Shown here one piece after another: positions 4,749-11,927 of a stretch of 45,431 nucleotides of DNA. This stretch comes from Spirochaetales bacterium (lineage in GTDB: Bacteria > Spirochaetota > Spirochaetia > Sphaerochaetales > Sphaerochaetaceae): contig JAHDQJ010000025.1 in the NCBI GenBank assembly GCA_018433865.1, positions 1 through 45,431 of the forward strand, in the 5' to 3' direction. The position numbers and the translations under genes were made by a program. Each line of letters opens with the position of its first letter. Within the stretch, counting starts at the first letter, position 1. The notes under the pieces were generated by a model. That model saw nothing but the letters and a program-made list of their open reading frames with translations, made no database searches and had not been told where the DNA came from.

Positions 4749-4777
4749 ATAATGTGAATGAAACGAAATGATGTCAA
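4749..4777 (-). promoter_or_regulatory. Promoter of the thrS T-box transcript
   Basis: A perfect TTGACA (4772-4777) lies 17 bp from CATTAT (4749-4754) on the minus strand. Transcription would start near 4742, just before T-box stem I. The -35 overlaps the stop codon of the msrC-like gene, so there is almost no spacer between the two units. Confidence 0.6.
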
Positions 4778-5277
4778 GTGAACGGCAGGACTCGGCTGAC
4801 AATCTCAGCCGCCTTTTCCAAGAAGTGCACATCGTACGGAGCGAACCGGTCAAGAATCGGACTGTCGACATCCAGGACCCCCACAACCGTACCACCAGAG
4901 ACCAGCGGAACGACCACTTCGCTCCTGCTTGCCGCATCACATGCGATATGACCGGCGAAGGCGTGCACATCGGGAACTGTCATGGTCTCGCGCCCGGACC
5001 ATGCCGTTCCGCACACCCCCTTGCCGAAGGGAATGACCGTGCATGCGGGTGCACCCCAGAAGGGACCCAGGACCAACTGCCTCAGCTGTTCGTCGACAAG
5101 ATAGAATCCGACCCAGTTCACCCGTTCGAGATACCTTCCCAGCAATGCCGCGGCATTGGCAAGCGACGATATCCGGTAGAGCATCGTGGGACCTGACGGT
5201 TGTACCAGCGCCTCGAGTTGTGCGAGGATTTCCATGGGGTCCGCGACCTTTCCCGTCATACACACAGGTTCATGCAC
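4774..5277 (-). CDS. msrC: GAF-domain free methionine-(R)-sulfoxide reductase
   Basis: The 167-residue single GAF domain matches the free-methionine-(R)-sulfoxide reductase family (E. coli MsrC/YebR), which reduces free Met-R-sulfoxide using active-site cysteines. Family landmarks are NWVGFYL, LGPFWGAPAC, FGKGVCGTAW, HIACDAASRSEVVVPL and GVLDVDSP. Cysteines in PAC, GVCG and IACD correspond to the three redox cysteines of the family. Translation probably starts at GTG 5277 with GGAG 9 nt upstream; this overlaps the hydrogenase gene by 8 bp and implies translational coupling. As the last gene of a hydrogenase operon it suggests oxidative-damage repair, or redox coupling, beside oxygen-sensitive enzymes. 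Confidence 0.85.
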   Translation of the reverse strand: MHEPVCMTGKVADPMEILAQLEALVQPSGPTMLYRISSLANAAALLGRYLERVNWVGFYLVDEQLRQLVLGPFWGAPACTVIPFGKGVCGTAWSGRETMTVPDVHAFAGHIACDAASRSEVVVPLVSGGTVVGVLDVDSPILDRFAPYDVHFLEKAAEIVSRVLPFT

Positions 5278-6733
5278 GTTTCTTGTCTCCTATGGGTCTG
5301 GCTCCGACTTTACCAACTTCGGTCCCCTGACGCAAGCGCATCGCGATCTTCGGGTTCACCAGGACTCCCGGACCGGAGAGACATCCTCCCTCGCAGCACA
5401 TCACTTCGACCAGATCTGCCTCAGGCGGACGCTTCTCCCACGTACGCATCAGACGGACGGTCTTCTTGTCCACTCCATCGATGTTCATGACCTGGACAGG
5501 CCTGTTCGTCCTGCGCTGGACCGCATGGGCAACTCCCTGTGAGACTGCAAACTCACGACAATCGGCATAGAGCGCGGCATCGGGCAGCTCATGCGGGGAA
5601 ATCTCCTTGATATCGATGCCACGGGCCACGAGAAGGACAGCCAACTCGGAGAACGTGATGACCGTCTCGATCTCTTCGATCCGTACCGCTTCCACCTTTT
5701 TCGCGAGACATGGACCGATAAATACCAACGCAGCATCCGGATTCCGCTTCCTGCACATCTCTGCCGTGTATGCCATCGGTGAGAGGGCGCCGGAACGACG
5801 GCCCGAGAGAGCAGGTACATGCTTGTCAACCAAGTTCATGTATGCAGGACAGCAGCTGGTGGTCATGAAACCCTGTTCCGCTGCGATCCGAGCGGCGACC
5901 TCTTCTGCTTCATGTTCCGCCGTAACGTGGGCACCTTCTGCCACTTCGACCACATCAGCGAAGCCCAATGCCTTGATTCCCGCCATGATTTGTGCGAGAG
6001 AACCGGGAAACTGGCCCTCGATCGCAGGAGCGATCATCGCGACTGCTTCGCGTCCCTCCTTCAGCAGGTTCGCCAGGTGGAGCAAGGAACTTCGTTCGAC
6101 GATCGCACCGAACGGGCACGATTGCGCACAGTGTCCGCAATCGATGCATGTGTCATGATCAATCTCCACGAATCCGTCTGCATTCTTGTGCACAGCCCCG
6201 ACGGGACAAGACGCCTCGCAAGGAACCGGGACGTGTATGACCGCATGGAACGGACAGACTTCAAGGCACTTGCCGCACTTGATGCACCGTTCTTCGACGA
6301 TATGTGCTCGTCCGTTGATGAATGCGATCGCATCCTTGGGGCAGTTGGCGAGGCACGGCCTGGCAAAGCAACCCCTGCAGGAGTCTGTGATCCGATACTG
6401 TTCATCGGGACACCCGCTGCATCCCACAGCGATGGTAGTCAGTGTCGGCAACGGTTTCGGCTCTGCATGCAAGGCTTCTGACACATAGTCGGCGAGCGGC
6501 TTGTATTCGTCATCATCTTTCTCGATGTCAAAGCCGAGCAATGCCATGATCCTGTAACGGACCATCGCACGTTCCTTGTAGACGCAACAGCGGTTGGGAT
6601 CCCTGTCACGGGGAATGATGTCTATCGGCAATGAGTCGACCCGCTTCTCGAGCGTTCCTGCGAAAAACGCCTTGAGCACCTCGGTGTCGATCTTCCGTTT
6701 CATCAAGGCATATTGATTGTTGCGCTCAAGCAT
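5270..6733 (-). CDS. [FeFe] hydrogenase, group B-like, monomeric catalytic type
   Basis: The 487-residue enzyme interconverts protons and H2 in the cytoplasm. The N-terminal half (about residues 100-210) carries several cysteine clusters for 4Fe-4S centres (CSGC, CRGC...CLANC, CIKCGKCLEVC, CIDCGHCAQSC). The H-cluster motifs are all present: L1 TTSCCPAY at 291-298, keeping the proton-relay cysteine; L2 GPCLAKKVE at 340-348; L3 VMCCEGGCLSGPG at 444-456. L1 and L3 differ slightly from the classical group A forms, which together with the architecture points to group B. A strong AAGGAGG site precedes the ATG. It overlaps the ferredoxin gene upstream by 8 bp and msrC downstream by 8 bp. Maturases HydE, HydF and HydG are not in the window. 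Confidence 0.9.
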   Translation of the reverse strand: MLERNNQYALMKRKIDTEVLKAFFAGTLEKRVDSLPIDIIPRDRDPNRCCVYKERAMVRYRIMALLGFDIEKDDDEYKPLADYVSEALHAEPKPLPTLTTIAVGCSGCPDEQYRITDSCRGCFARPCLANCPKDAIAFINGRAHIVEERCIKCGKCLEVCPFHAVIHVPVPCEASCPVGAVHKNADGFVEIDHDTCIDCGHCAQSCPFGAIVERSSLLHLANLLKEGREAVAMIAPAIEGQFPGSLAQIMAGIKALGFADVVEVAEGAHVTAEHEAEEVAARIAAEQGFMTTSCCPAYMNLVDKHVPALSGRRSGALSPMAYTAEMCRKRNPDAALVFIGPCLAKKVEAVRIEEIETVITFSELAVLLVARGIDIKEISPHELPDAALYADCREFAVSQGVAHAVQRRTNRPVQVMNIDGVDKKTVRLMRTWEKRPPEADLVEVMCCEGGCLSGPGVLVNPKIAMRLRQGTEVGKVGARPIGDKKRA

Positions 6734-6989
6734 CTATCGCCTCCTTGATCAACTGCCGCAGCCGATCGACCGTGACATTCGCATGCACATTCCCATCGAC
6801 CTCCACGAAAGGAGCACCGCTTTTCGCATCCTGGACTTTGCATCCTCCGAGACACCCGGTTCCCTCTATCACGCACCGTTCCAACAGGGAGGGTTCGAGA
6901 AAATCCTCATACAGCAGAAGGTCGGCACCTCCTTGGACGAAACACGCCGTCCCCACACAAATCTTCACCGCAATCTTCCTCTGTGCCAT
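6726..6989 (-). CDS. Thioredoxin-like 2Fe-2S ferredoxin
   Basis: The 87-residue protein has the cysteine spacing of thioredoxin-fold 2Fe-2S proteins (HydA/NuoE C-terminal type): C-x4-C in KICVGTACF and C-x3-C in GCLGGC. It would carry electrons to or from the hydrogenase encoded immediately downstream, which it overlaps by 8 bp. The ATG has a clear AAGGAG 5 nt upstream. It is one of two such small ferredoxins in this operon; each lies directly upstream of one hydrogenase gene or its phosphatase pair, suggesting dedicated partners. Confidence 0.85.
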   Translation of the reverse strand: MAQRKIAVKICVGTACFVQGGADLLLYEDFLEPSLLERCVIEGTGCLGGCKVQDAKSGAPFVEVDGNVHANVTVDRLRQLIKEAIDA

Positions 6990-7009
6990 ACGTGCTCCTT
7001 CTCGGTCTC

Positions 7010-8203
7010 CTAGATGTACTCCAGGATCGTTTCTTTCAAATAGTGTTGCTCAAGCGCCCGCCGGATCCGGCTGATGATCGTCCGCCTGATGCCTATCTCC
7101 ACCGGAATGCTCGGGTCCTGGTGGGCTTCATTTATCTTGGTTCCCACGATGAACGATACTTGGTCGCTATCGAGGAGGATCGAGACGAAGCGCCTGACCG
7201 CATCGTTGGGCATGTTATGCAACGGAATCTTCTGTTCCAATGCGGTGGCCACCTTGCTCAAGGTCAACATCCCCTCCGTGACCAAGTCCATCCCTTCCAT
7301 CTTCGACGCCGGAGGAACGTCACGGGACCAGCAGGAGAGATCGACCGAGACTTTCGCACCGAACAGACGGGACACGATCTGCGCGGTCGTGCCGCCCGAG
7401 ACGATTTTCCTTCCGTCGAACTCACGGATCTTACGTCCGAGCAAGTCATCGCGCTCCTTCGTGAACGGAGGGCCGGTCACGACCAAGGTCCTCCGTGGCC
7501 TCCTGACATAGAGCACCGCGCAGGTGATGTCATCCTTCGCTGCGTAACCATCCAATGCGTACGCCTTCCTGGTGATCGCCGCCGCCAATTCGCGCGAAGA
7601 AATCTCGGGGTGTCGGCCGATCAGCTCGGAGATGAACGAGGACACCCCTGATTGGCGCCAACCGAGAGGGAATGTCTTGCCCATTCCCGATTGCATCACC
7701 CCGTCCGTGCACATGATCAGCCGGTCCCCCTCCTGCATCGTGAATGAGGACTGCCTGATCGTCTCCTCCTTGAACGCTCCCTCGCGCTTGAGATCGATGG
7801 AATTCACCTCGAAAGGGACCGGCAGGTCACGGGAGAAACGCATCGAGGGAGGATTGTCGTACTCCACCAGCTGCACCGCGATGCCCTTCTCCTCCAAGCT
7901 ACGCACATCGGCGATGGTGAATGTCGAGTAGCTGATCTTCCGCTCGTTGCATACGGGAAGCGTATTCATGATGATCTTCGCCGAATTGGTGAGGTGCATG
8001 GGACCGAACGAGAGCTTGTGCGCCATATGGGCGGTGAGGTTGGCAAGCACATTGGCCTTCACGCCGCTGCCCAATCCGTCGGAGAGGGTGCACACTACCC
8101 GATTGCCCTTTTCCTCTTTCGATTGGAGGAAGACATCTCCGCCGATCCTCTGTCCCGCCTTGTAGGTCTGGCTGTAATCGACATCGATGAAGATTCCGTT
8201 CAC
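7010..8203 (-). CDS. SpoIIE-family PP2C-type protein phosphatase with extra C-terminal domain
   Basis: The first 230 or so residues form a SpoIIE/PP2C-like metal-dependent serine/threonine phosphatase domain, with the metal-site motif LSDGLGSGVKAN near residue 40 and a later MCTDGVMQSG motif. Residues from about 230 to 397 form a further region I do not recognise, containing SGGTTAQIVSRLFG. No transmembrane segment is seen. The GTG start overlaps the hydS-like stop codon by 4 bp (GTGA) and has GAGAGG 6 nt upstream, so it is translationally coupled to the sensory hydrogenase. This points to a sensor-phosphatase pair. No partner kinase or anti-sigma factor is encoded nearby. Confidence 0.85.
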   Translation of the reverse strand: MNGIFIDVDYSQTYKAGQRIGGDVFLQSKEEKGNRVVCTLSDGLGSGVKANVLANLTAHMAHKLSFGPMHLTNSAKIIMNTLPVCNERKISYSTFTIADVRSLEEKGIAVQLVEYDNPPSMRFSRDLPVPFEVNSIDLKREGAFKEETIRQSSFTMQEGDRLIMCTDGVMQSGMGKTFPLGWRQSGVSSFISELIGRHPEISSRELAAAITRKAYALDGYAAKDDITCAVLYVRRPRRTLVVTGPPFTKERDDLLGRKIREFDGRKIVSGGTTAQIVSRLFGAKVSVDLSCWSRDVPPASKMEGMDLVTEGMLTLSKVATALEQKIPLHNMPNDAVRRFVSILLDSDQVSFIVGTKINEAHQDPSIPVEIGIRRTIISRIRRALEQHYLKETILEYI

Positions 8204-10047
8204 ACCGAGCCTCTCTGGTCTGTATCGATGAAGAATCCGTCCGGACCATCTCCGAGCGGAACCTGGAACGCGTCGATGAGGGAGTTGAGGGTGATTTCTG
8301 TCTCCGCGGCATTCTCACCGAGCAGGCTCGCGATCTGCTGGACCGTCTCCAAGCTTTTCCTGATGACTGCATCGGCTTTCTTCACCACGGTCTCCCTCCT
8401 CACGGTAGGTGTCGTGATATCCTGGAACATCGCGCCGACGAGCCGATGATGTTCTATCGTGAAGAAGATGACCTTGAGGAATTTCCCCTTGAAGTGGAGC
8501 CGGTACTGTCCGTTCGTACCACTGGTGTCGAACTGTTGGGCAAATTCCCCGTGAAAGGGGACGAACCGCTGCAGCGGCAATCCGGGGACTTTGTCAACGG
8601 CATCCGAACCCAATTCGTCATCGATGCCGGCGAACAGCTTGAGGAAGGCAATGTTGCAATCCACGATATCCAGATGCCTGTCGACGATGACGACACCCAT
8701 CGGCAAGGTTCGGAGCAGCACATCGATCTTGCTCTGCGCAAGCTTGCGCATCCTGGTGACACACATCTCGGGTTCCGCCATCCCGTCGAGATAGGCGATC
8801 GCCATGTCCCGGCATGAGTTGTACCCGCAACCGCCGCAGTTCAACTCATCCCCCGGGCCGATCTTTCCCAACTCAGAAAGTGCTTTTGCGATCTCTTGCT
8901 CAGTGAATTTGGCAAGGGGTGCCGGTCCGAGCAGGAATCCACCCGATTGTGAGCTCCCTTCCAGGATCCCATAGCCCTTGTCCAACAGCTCCGACACATA
9001 GCTTGCATCGGGAACAAAGACGGGTCGTTCACGTACGATCCTGGTTCTGGTGAATCTGATCGCTTGTCCCTTGCTGACCGCAGAAGAACGGAATCGCGAT
9101 TTCCCCGGGCCGTTGATGCAACCGCCTTCGCAGTTGAGCAATTCCAAGAATGGGGCATGCGCATCCTTCGGATTCGCCCTCAAGTCTTCCAACGTCTCGA
9201 TGACATGGGCAACGCCGGATACGGAGACCGCCTTGTCCTGGAACACGTCCTTGCCGACCGCGAAGGTCGCGACCATGCCACCCTCCACCGGATACAAGGT
9301 GCTCTCCCCGGCTTCCGCGGGAATCATGGAGCCGACCGATTCTTCGGTGATCCCCTCCTGTTGCAGCAAGGTGAGGTCCAGATGCTCCTCATCGAACCAC
9401 GCACGCAGTTCCCTGAACGTAAGGGCGATGTCCGGGTACCCGGGACTGTGATCCGCCTCCACTTTCTTCGCGATGCACGGTCCCACGAAGACTATGCCGA
9501 TATCTTTACCATAGAGGTGCCTGAGATACGCCGCGTGGCATTGCAGGGGGGAGGGAATCGGACTGAGACGTCCTATCAAGTGCGGGTGATAGCGATGGAC
9601 AAGCTCGACCACCGAAGGACAGGCGGTGGAAATCCAATCGCAACTTCCCGTCCTCCTGATATGTTCGTCGATTGCTGCGGAGACCAGGCTTGCTCCGATA
9701 GCGGTTTCCGAGATATCGGAGAATCCAAGCCTGCGCAAGGCAACCAGCACCGCTTCGGGAGTCTCCGAGAATTCGCTTGCATACGAAGGTGCGAGAGAGA
9801 CGATCACACGTTTGTGGGTTTTCAGCAACTGCTTGGCCAAGTATACATCGTCACGAATCTTCTTCGCGTGGGAGGGACAGGTGTCGACGCACTTGCCACA
9901 TGAGATGCAGCGATCGCGGACGACCGTGGCCCTGCCTTGGTCGACCTGGATCGACTTGACCGGACATGCCCGGACACACTTGTAGCAATCCCTACATTCG
10001 GTGAGTTCAGTGTAGATGGGATAGAGTTTCGGGTTGCCGTTACCCAT
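8200..10047 (-). CDS. hydS: Sensory [FeFe] hydrogenase with PAS domain (HydS-like, group C)
   Basis: In order, the 615-residue protein has: two 4Fe-4S ferredoxin motifs (about residues 18-60); an [FeFe] hydrogenase H-cluster domain (about 80-330); a four-cysteine Fe-S motif C-x2-C-x4-C-x16-C (404-429); and a PAS domain (about 437-548) with a short helical tail. L1 reads STACPS (140-145): the first cysteine of the catalytic CC pair, the proton relay, is replaced by alanine. L2 GPCIAKKVE and L3 NCEGGCINGPG keep the cluster ligands. This pattern fits group C sensory hydrogenases such as HydS of Thermotoga maritima. The start at ATG 10047 is preferred to an upstream alternative because AAGGGAT lies before it. 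It overlaps the upstream ferredoxin gene by 8 bp. Confidence 0.88.
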   Translation of the reverse strand: MGNGNPKLYPIYTELTECRDCYKCVRACPVKSIQVDQGRATVVRDRCISCGKCVDTCPSHAKKIRDDVYLAKQLLKTHKRVIVSLAPSYASEFSETPEAVLVALRRLGFSDISETAIGASLVSAAIDEHIRRTGSCDWISTACPSVVELVHRYHPHLIGRLSPIPSPLQCHAAYLRHLYGKDIGIVFVGPCIAKKVEADHSPGYPDIALTFRELRAWFDEEHLDLTLLQQEGITEESVGSMIPAEAGESTLYPVEGGMVATFAVGKDVFQDKAVSVSGVAHVIETLEDLRANPKDAHAPFLELLNCEGGCINGPGKSRFRSSAVSKGQAIRFTRTRIVRERPVFVPDASYVSELLDKGYGILEGSSQSGGFLLGPAPLAKFTEQEIAKALSELGKIGPGDELNCGGCGYNSCRDMAIAYLDGMAEPEMCVTRMRKLAQSKIDVLLRTLPMGVVIVDRHLDIVDCNIAFLKLFAGIDDELGSDAVDKVPGLPLQRFVPFHGEFAQQFDTSGTNGQYRLHFKGKFLKVIFFTIEHHRLVGAMFQDITTPTVRRETVVKKADAVIRKSLETVQQIASLLGENAAETEITLNSLIDAFQVPLGDGPDGFFIDTDQRGSV

Positions 10048-10306
10048 GGATCGATCCCTTTCGAGCCGCCAACGCGTTCTCAAGGAGGAGGACGGCTTGG
10101 TCAGGACGGACCGATGTATGCAATACGCCGTCGATCCGCATGTTCGGACCCTGGGAACAGGTTCCGAGACAGAGGTGTCCGGTCAATTCGACAACATCAG
10201 CCAGATCGTGACGCTCGACATAGGATTCAAGATAGCCAAGAGCCTTGGCGTTTCCTCGTGCGAAGCAGGAGCTGCCCATGCAAATTTCAACAACCACGGT
10301 ATTCAT
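10040..10306 (-). CDS. Thioredoxin-like 2Fe-2S ferredoxin, first gene of the hydrogenase operon
   Basis: The protein has 88 residues from ATG 10306. Cysteines are spaced as in thioredoxin-fold 2Fe-2S ferredoxins: C-x4-C in EICMGSSCF and C-x3-C in CLGTC. It probably exchanges electrons with the HydS-like protein, whose gene overlaps its end by 8 bp. There is no Shine-Dalgarno sequence before the ATG. Instead a good promoter ends exactly 6 nt upstream, so the mRNA is predicted to be leaderless. A TTG at 10321 would extend the frame but falls inside the promoter and has no ribosome site. Confidence 0.82.
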   Translation of the reverse strand: MNTVVVEICMGSSCFARGNAKALGYLESYVERHDLADVVELTGHLCLGTCSQGPNMRIDGVLHTSVRPDQAVLLLENALAARKGSIHG

Positions 10307-10312
10307 GGCCAA

Positions 10313-10341
10313 AGGATACAAAATTATCGAAAAGATGTCAA
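10313..10341 (-). promoter_or_regulatory. Promoter of the hydrogenase operon (predicted leaderless)
   Basis: TTGACA (10336-10341) and TATCCT (10313-10318) are separated by exactly 17 bp on the minus strand. Only six bases, TTGGCC, lie between the -10 and the ATG at 10306, so the expected start site is the A of the ATG. Confidence 0.65.
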
Positions 10342-10418: not shown

Positions 10419-10436
10419 ATGTGATTCATGTCACAT
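10419..10436. promoter_or_regulatory. Candidate Rex operator (TGTGA-N6-TCACA dyad)
   Basis: ATGTGA-TTCATG-TCACAT is an 18-bp perfect dyad in its arms. It fits the Rex consensus TTGTGAA-N4-TTCACAA in its core, but also the CRP/FNR-type TGTGA-N6-TCACA. It overlaps the rex stop codon and lies about 80 bp upstream of the -35 of the hydrogenase operon. Adjacency to rex makes Rex the more likely ligand. Confidence 0.5.
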
Positions 10437-11088
10437 TATGATGCGTTTCTGGAAATTGATTCCCGCAATGGTCGAACAAGCGCCTGCATTTAGCGGACAA
10501 CACCGCGAAGCTCGTTGCGAGATCGGTTCTTTGCAACACGATGTCGGAGGGGAGACGCAGATCCTTCGGGGCAAAGTTCCAGATCGCCTTGATTCCCGCT
10601 TCCACCAGGATGTCGGCAACCTCCTGGGCAGATTCGGCGGGTACGGTGATCACCGCGATATTGATCGCATGATCTGCGACGTACGCTTTCAACTCCTCCA
10701 TGGGATAGACGATCGTCTTCCCGATCGGTCGTCCGTATTTCGCCGTATCACGATCGAACACCGCGACGATCTTCAATCCGTAGCTTGCGAACCCTTCATA
10801 ACGGGAGAGCGCGACACCGAGATGACCGGCTCCGATAAGCACGGCGTCAGTCGCATTGTCCCACCCCAAGTTCTCGACGATGGCAGCGATCAATGCATCA
10901 ATCTCGAATCCCACCTTCGGTCGCCCTTCCACACCTGTTCCTGCCATGTCCTTCCGGACTTGTATCGGAGTCAGGCCGAGCTCCGTAGCCAACCGAGTGG
11001 CAGAAACCCACAGCTCCCCTTCTTCACGGTACTGCCGCAACAGCCTGAGATACGATGGAAATCGCTTGATTGTCGGTATTGAAATCAT
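10426..11088 (-). CDS. rex: Redox-sensing transcriptional repressor Rex
   Basis: This 220-residue NADH/NAD+-responsive repressor has an N-terminal winged-helix domain (SIPTIKRFPSYLRLL, TPIQVRKDMA) and a C-terminal Rossmann fold with VLIGAGHLGVAL (GxGxxG) for NAD(H). A domain-swap helix end is likely. The frame extends 7 codons further to an ATG overlapping the HAD gene. ATG 11088 is preferred because AGGAGG lies 5 nt before it and family members begin near ISIPTIKR. It is the last gene of the yajC-secDF-ispH-HAD-rex run, and the hydrogenase operon directly downstream is its obvious target. Confidence 0.93.
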   Translation of the reverse strand: MISIPTIKRFPSYLRLLRQYREEGELWVSATRLATELGLTPIQVRKDMAGTGVEGRPKVGFEIDALIAAIVENLGWDNATDAVLIGAGHLGVALSRYEGFASYGLKIVAVFDRDTAKYGRPIGKTIVYPMEELKAYVADHAINIAVITVPAESAQEVADILVEAGIKAIWNFAPKDLRLPSDIVLQRTDLATSFAVLSAKCRRLFDHCGNQFPETHHNVT

Positions 11089-11105
11089 CCGCTCCTCCTG
11101 GTTTG

Positions 11106-11927
11106 TCATGCATTGTCCGGAACCAAGGTCCCGACTGAATCGAGCACAAGGTTCGGCCTGTAGGCAAAGTTCTTCGGCGTATCCACATCGGAGACCCCCG
11201 ACAGAACCAGCACGGTATCGATGCCGCTCTCGATACCGCTCACGATGTCGGTATCCATGCGATCCCCGATGATCGCCGTATCTTCCCGCTTGCTTTGCAA
11301 CCGCATGAGAGCCTGACGCATCATGACGGGATTGGGCTTCCCGATGAAATACGGCTTCACATTGGCGGTGCTCGCGATGGGAAGTATGAGAGAGCCGGTC
11401 GCGGGAACGATTCCCTCCTCGCTCGGTCCGGTCATGTCAGGGTTCGTGCCGATCAAGCGGGCTCCGTTTCGCACGAGGTTCACCGCACGGATGACGGTCT
11501 CATAATTGTACGTCTTGGACTCACCGACCACCACATAGTCCGGATTGATGTCATTCATCGAGTAACCCGCCTCATAGAGGGCGTTGATGAGACCCGCCTC
11601 ACCGATAACGTAGGCAGTACCGTGGGGAACCTGCGAGGCGAGGAATCCGGCGGTCGCCAGTGCCGATGTATAGAAATGGTCTGCGTCGATCTCCATGCCA
11701 AGGCGACGCATCTTCAGCTTCAGTTCCATCGGAGAACGTTCGCTGGAGTTGGTGAGGAAAAGATAACGCTTCCCTTCACGTTGCATCCATTTCACGAAGT
11801 CAAGGACTCCCGGAAGAAGTCGGTTCCCATGATAAATCACACCATCCATATCGCAGATGAACGCACTCTTGTTACGCAACCTCTCCAACATGTCCTCGGA
11901 AGAGACGAATCTCTCGCTCGTACCCAT
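11106..11927 (-). CDS. HAD superfamily IIA phosphatase (NagD-like)
   Basis: The 273-residue cytoplasmic phosphatase of the HAD-IIA (NagD/AraL) group hydrolyses small phosphomonoesters. Motif I is CDMDGVIYHG with the nucleophilic Asp; motif II is LTNSSERSP; the C2-cap region ends in GKPNP; motif IV is IGDRMDTDI. The substrate cannot be deduced. ATG 11927 overlaps the ispH stop by one base (TGATG) and has AAGGAG 7 nt upstream; a GTG one codon earlier is less likely. The gene is translationally coupled to ispH. Despite the name there is no direct link to the nag genes further right. Confidence 0.85.
   Translation of the reverse strand: MGTSERFVSSEDMLERLRNKSAFICDMDGVIYHGNRLLPGVLDFVKWMQREGKRYLFLTNSSERSPMELKLKMRRLGMEIDADHFYTSALATAGFLASQVPHGTAYVIGEAGLINALYEAGYSMNDINPDYVVVGESKTYNYETVIRAVNLVRNGARLIGTNPDMTGPSEEGIVPATGSLILPIASTANVKPYFIGKPNPVMMRQALMRLQSKREDTAIIGDRMDTDIVSGIESGIDTVLVLSGVSDVDTPKNFAYRPNLVLDSVGTLVPDNA

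Follow-up and report, generated by a model that had tools for sequence, protein, structure and literature searches.

The window analysed here is the whole 45,431-nt stretch of DNA, and it carries six minus-strand genes lying behind rex (4774–10306) that overlap by 4–8 bp at four of their five junctions (Table 1). The initial annotation of this DNA had described a six-gene operon at this point, made up of a PAS-bearing hydrogenase, a SpoIIE-type phosphatase, two 2Fe-2S proteins, a group B hydrogenase and a methionine sulfoxide reductase. Pfam and NCBIfam scans of the window (PF01257 and PF02906 were each found twice) bore out the layout and the domain assignments of the first five, with the PAS domain, which falls below the Pfam cut-offs, being taken from an AlphaFold2 model. 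These five genes, encoding HfsA, HfsB/HydS, HfsC, a second 2Fe-2S protein and HfsD, form the core set. Of 41 genomes searched, 40 of them relatives of the one that holds the window, many carry the HfsA-B-C-2Fe2S-D block in the same order, and as it is also found widely elsewhere, the gene order is not due to chance. The locus is the Sphaerochaetaceae-type spirochaete version of an already known bacterial gene set. It is ordinary in kind and well conserved, and its function has already been hypothesised in the literature.

Table 1. Genes and sequence features of the hfs region, with positions in the window
Feature	Position	Strand	Description	Match	Junction with following gene
rex	10426–11109	-	redox-sensing repressor, upstream neighbour	NF003994 equivalog
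Inverted repeat TGTGACATGAATCACA	10420–10435	not assigned	between rex and hfsA, at the end of rex
Putative promoter	about 10304–10341 (boxes 10313–10341)	-	TTGACA-N17-TATCCT, 6 bases before ATG 10306
hfsA-like	10040–10306	-	thioredoxin-type [2Fe-2S] protein, four cluster cysteines	PF01257, E = 3.4e-8	8-bp overlap
hfsB/hydS	8200–10047	-	PAS-bearing group C-type [FeFe] hydrogenase; starts at ATG 10047	PF02906 + PF04060	4-bp overlap
hfsC	7010–8203	-	SpoIIE-type phosphatase with C-terminal alpha/beta domain	PF07228, E = 2e-11	20-bp gap (7010/6989)
Second [2Fe-2S] gene	6726–6989	-	thioredoxin-type, paired with hfsD	PF01257, E = 3.9e-6	8-bp overlap
hfsD	5270–6733	-	monomeric [FeFe] hydrogenase, group B1	TIGR04105	8-bp overlap
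Reductase	4774–5277	-	GAF-type free methionine-R-sulfoxide reductase	PDB 3ksf, E = 1.3e-41

Rex scored 252.8 bits against its equivalog model, for which the cut-off is 130 bits. Its gene ends approximately 120 bp upstream of the operon ATG, and among the 41 genomes searched rex is often found directly upstream of the hfs block. The start of hfsA is probably the ATG at 10306; the reading frame is open from a TTG at 10321 as well, but the ATG is preferred because this TTG overlaps the conserved -10 box of the putative promoter. Both promoter boxes are identical in three genomes of the genus, and the transcript may be leaderless. At the end of rex lies TGTGACATGAATCACA, a perfect TGTGA-N6-TCACA palindrome of which six examples occur genome-wide, compared to none for a reversed-pattern control, and which is not kept base for base in relatives. 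It has the shape of a Rex- or CRP/FNR-type operator, and its role as a candidate Rex operator is only suggested.

All iron-sulfur and H-cluster ligands are present in HfsB, namely eight N-terminal cluster cysteines (for two [4Fe-4S] clusters), an H-domain with the four H-cluster cysteines (STACP, GPCIAKK and CEGGCINGPG motifs) and a further four cysteines of the PF04060 site near the C-terminus, preceding the PAS domain and a helix. The protein has alanine where group A enzymes carry the proton-transfer cysteine (STACP). Pfam matches to PAS models were below the cut-offs (PAS_8, E = 0.006; PAS_9, E = 0.016), and the AlphaFold2 model (pLDDT 88.6) predicts a PAS topology of strand-strand-helices-three strands at about residues 450–542, which is followed by a long C-terminal signalling helix. 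With an H-domain and a C-terminal FeS site that both score above the Pfam cut-offs, a model-based PAS domain and an adjoining Ser/Thr-type phosphatase gene overlapping by 4 bp, HfsB shares the make-up of the 'phosphatase-linked' [FeFe] group C3 (HydS) of HydDB (PMC5037454), a match set by domains and the neighbouring gene rather than by the HydDB classifier. The alanine at the position of Cys299 of CpI and the PAS domain are likewise features of HydS of Thermotoga maritima, a low-activity sensory type (PMC10055695). A search of viral contigs for relatives of HfsB found none. Two HfsB-HfsC pairs occur in tandem in Ancylomarina/Marinifilum (L105, L113, L116), where the second HfsB has serine in place of an N-terminal cluster cysteine and a TKCP version of the L1 motif.

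The phosphatase site of HfsC is intact in an alignment of 17 sequences, in which the metal-binding aspartates (D23, D42, D167, D224 and D225) and the GD, SDGLGSG, DG and DD motifs of SpoIIE/PP2C phosphatases are invariant, in support of the phosphatase named in the initial annotation. This part is followed by a domain of ~160 residues (about 237–397; window 7013–7519) with an alpha/beta fold, an invariant GGTT motif and a near-invariant GTxINEAHQDP motif. No Pfam model recognises this region, a sequence comparison with the PDB gave nothing significant, and Foldseek gave no match at E ≤ 0.001 for the domain, which is predicted with high confidence (pLDDT 91.4). The top matches using VIA-align were domains of NuoG, FwdB and FdhF, with 7awt_G aligning at a Z of 10.6 and an rmsd of 3.5 over 120 residues (12% identity). 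This predicted likeness to the NuoG/FwdB/FdhF alpha/beta domain is a resemblance and implies no function. In one relative (G009; L045:4951–5388) a domain of the same type adjoins an HfsA gene with no phosphatase part detectable.

HfsC is the sole SpoIIE phosphatase of the genome. A search of the genome for a stand-alone STAS protein found none, and a classical RsbV/SpoIIAA substrate is therefore unlikely. The gene content differs accordingly from that of SpoIIE/RsbU partner switching, with no stand-alone STAS protein and with HATPases sitting at other loci.

HfsD belongs to the monomeric group B1, scoring 490.4 bits against TIGR04105 (curated cut-off 450), and has TTSCCPAY, GPCLAKK and CCEGGCLSGPG motifs in which TSCCP is retained; a review places the HfsD of Thermoanaerobacterium saccharolyticum in group B (PMC8924675). 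The last gene of the operon encodes a free methionine-R-sulfoxide reductase (fRMsr), with its three conserved cysteines aligned to those of PDB 3ksf. It is found beside hfs only in Sphaerochaetaceae-type loci and is absent from several of those. This gene is thus a lineage-specific neighbour and not part of the core, and because its distribution is confined to part of the Sphaerochaetaceae, its inclusion in the circuit by the initial annotation was rejected.

The closest described counterpart is hfsABCD of Thermoanaerobacterium saccharolyticum (PMC5707799; PMC11837493), which likewise has a small HfsA followed by a PAS hydrogenase HfsB, a serine phosphatase homolog HfsC and a ferredoxin-linked HfsD in one operon, a likeness judged by gene content and the published description rather than by alignment. 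The A-B-C-D order is that described for T. saccharolyticum (PMC11837493), an additional 2Fe-2S gene being placed after C and before D. The locus in the window differs from hfsABCD in this second 2Fe-2S gene before HfsD, in having rex directly upstream and the reductase after it, and in the lack of HydEFG. The HydS cluster of Ruminococcus albus likewise combines a group C hydrogenase and a phosphatase that are co-transcribed with a fermentative hydrogenase, but it has an alcohol/aldehyde dehydrogenase and the partner hydrogenase is reported as group A1 there and is of group B1 here (PMC6776011). That cluster was 111-fold down in an H2-consuming co-culture, and H2 sensing by HydS was proposed, the phosphatase being one 'that may modify downstream regulators' (PMC6776011). 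The idea of an H2 sensor acting on a phosphatase, which was also put forward in the initial annotation, is therefore a published hypothesis already, and an unproven one. The operon extends this proposed scheme to a Sphaerochaetaceae-type spirochaete.

A scan of named genomes identified at least 585 relatives of HfsC, and gene neighbourhoods were read in the best 80 by similarity, a sample which leans to close relatives. In 79 of these 80 loci the gene immediately before HfsC is HfsB. Of those with sufficient room, again among the best 80 of at least 585, HfsA lies just before HfsB in 64 of 75 and HfsD lies downstream of HfsC in 36 of 67; the second 2Fe-2S gene accompanies hfsD in 34 of the 36. 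A separate catalytic HydA-type hydrogenase is found elsewhere in the locus in 12 of the others, and four Bacillota carry the HfsB-HfsC pair by itself, neither HfsA nor HfsD being close by. As read from record titles, these 80 loci span more than ten phyla (Spirochaetota, Bacillota, Bacteroidota, Acidobacteriota, Verrucomicrobiota, Planctomycetota, Nitrospirota, Cloacimonadota, Hydrogenedentota, Synergistota, Pseudomonadota and others). Because the adjacency of HfsB and HfsC is kept while the neighbouring hydrogenases differ, the pair is a stable module that is exchangeable as to its catalytic hydrogenase, occurring beside different ones or none. The HydS-phosphatase linkage relied on in the initial annotation is thus conserved elsewhere. 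It is highly improbable that the six genes are mere neighbours under a shared promoter, with sensor and phosphatase functionally unlinked; the reductase does behave in this manner, but the HfsB-HfsC adjacency persists over this phylogenetic range among otherwise different neighbours. Its conservation across more than ten phyla makes this module a worthwhile candidate for reconstitution.

The values of dN/dS between two congeners were 0.063 for HfsB, 0.040 for HfsC and 0.045 for HfsD, with secD at 0.048 for comparison, showing purifying selection on all three, and the genes are thus maintained. A value for rex (the window against L027) was discarded as an alignment artefact.

Taking these data together, it is likely that the locus is an hfsABCD-type operon in which an HfsB-HfsC sensor-phosphatase pair, usually with HfsA, stands together with a fermentative hydrogenase of group B (the 2Fe-2S protein and HfsD), with redox input through HfsB switching HfsC. 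A shift in redox or ligand state at the hydrogenase domain of HfsB would change the PAS domain and helix, and this change would switch HfsC, which would in turn dephosphorylate a target protein. Such dephosphorylation may reset fermentative electron disposal, by analogy to the hydrogenase and adhE expression of T. saccharolyticum and R. albus. Two observations count against this mechanism. The first is that the HfsB-HfsC pair is not accompanied by a kinase or substrate gene, as neither a kinase nor a STAS gene was recurrent beside HfsC in the 80 loci. The operon itself holds no substrate or kinase gene, and the description of it as a complete circuit in the initial annotation is not supported. 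The second is that in T. saccharolyticum deletion of hfsC had an outcome unlike that of hfsB deletion (PMC5707799). The deletions otherwise favour the mechanism: loss of hfsA or hfsB raised the ethanol yield and loss of hfsB also raised hydrogenase activity, whereas deletion of hfsC or hfsD left the ethanol yield at that of the wild type, and hfsC and hfsD were required for high ethanol yield (PMC5707799). The 111-fold fall of the R. albus cluster in co-culture is likewise in its favour (PMC6776011).

The genome is 99.9% complete and has five [FeFe]-hydrogenase genes, and HMM searches of it for HydE, HydF and HydG, the canonical [FeFe]-hydrogenase maturation proteins known to be required for assembly of the active site, found none of the three, with the T. 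maritima control, which possesses all of them, matching each time. Of 19 hfs-bearing genomes, this one included, 12 lack all three (G000, G001, G002, G003, G004, G007, G013, G015, G016, G021, G024 and G040), and two of these, G004 and G024, are single-contig genomes. All three are present in six (G018, G019, G022, G027, G029 and G031), with G006 having HydF only. The four Bacillota with a lone HfsB-HfsC pair are also without HydG, which was found in 30 of 49 further HfsC genomes, most of them metagenome assemblies in which single absences mean little. A literature search for maturase-less hfs genomes returned no paper, with many relevant papers lying outside that search. The lack of all three maturases makes H2 sensing doubtful in this organism, and cellular redox state is a safer description of the HfsB input than H2. 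Of the proposal that H2 acts on the phosphatase, the linkage and the intact phosphatase site stand, while its H2-sensing part is placed in doubt here by the missing HydEFG.

Either these are proteins free of the [2Fe] subsite, acting as redox and not H2 sensors, or there is a maturation route of a new kind. It is quite possible, if short of probable, that the hydrogenase-domain proteins of the clade work without [2Fe], HfsB being an iron-sulfur redox sensor and HfsD an electron-transfer or vestigial protein. The joint absence of the maturases in 12 of the 19 genomes and the HydG-less Bacillota argue for this, but the TSCCP and MPC residues expected of catalytic enzymes are retained in HfsD and HydA, and selection on HfsD is purifying. 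It appears rather unlikely that HfsB genuinely senses H2 by means of a full H-cluster whose assembly bypasses HydE, HydF and HydG or relies on highly diverged forms of them. Such sensing would fit with the PCxxK lysine and the four H-cluster cysteines of HfsB, which are the same in HydG-less genomes as in those that have HydG, with the contig C29 group A hydrogenase, in which the catalytic motifs are complete (ITSCCPAW, MPCTAKKFE and EVMACRGGC), and with the low dN/dS of HfsB, HfsC and HfsD (0.04–0.06) in the maturase-less genus. However, the same cysteines also bind a plain [4Fe-4S] cluster, so their conservation is no proof of a [2Fe] subsite, and we know of no bacterial alternative to HydEFG, which counts against an H-cluster made without it. 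We similarly consider it unlikely that the Sphaerochaetaceae keep several [FeFe] hydrogenases, HfsB-HfsC included, competent without HydEFG through an undescribed H-cluster route; if H-clusters are assembled by another route, H2 sensing stands after all. With the maturases absent, there must be a new maturation route or else a use of the hydrogenase fold that dispenses with [2Fe]. This absence matters more than the operon, as [FeFe]-hydrogenase genes by themselves do not allow H2 production, uptake or sensing to be deduced in this clade, and it is the absence, rather than the operon, that deserves follow-up.

With redox input through HfsB retained as the preferred reading, a possible source of the opposing kinase activity lies elsewhere in the genome. 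On contig C18 (L144:8177–9968) an RsbT/SpoIIAB-like ATPase gene directly precedes and overlaps a group D-type (TamHydS-like) hydrogenase gene, and the two are adjacent in all relative loci with both sides readable. One ATPase flanking a group D-type hydrogenase has been noted in T. mathranii (PMC8163306). HfsC could be the phosphatase arm of a switch, with the RsbT/SpoIIAB-like ATPases found next to the genome's other hydrogenases (C18 and C29, with a CBS fusion on C4) acting as the kinases. The lack of any SpoIIE protein other than HfsC in the genome and the constant adjacency of the ATPase/group D pair are in keeping with this, as is the co-occurrence of the pair with HfsC (13/19 versus 3/22; Fisher p = 0.0005, uncorrected for phylogeny), which is to be treated as a lead and not a finding. 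Set against these, six HfsC genomes are without the ATPase/group D pair, none of the 80 loci has an RsbT-type ATPase beside HfsC, and the genome offers no stand-alone STAS protein as a classical substrate; such an arrangement is judged improbable.

A second small HATPase gene occurs on contig C29 inside a HydABC-type cluster (L145, about 8840–9110). The CBS-domain/RsbT-like ATPase fusion on contig C4 (L191:2934–5026) lies next to a PHP-domain gene, with no hydrogenase seen nearby, and is a conserved paralogue in many relatives.
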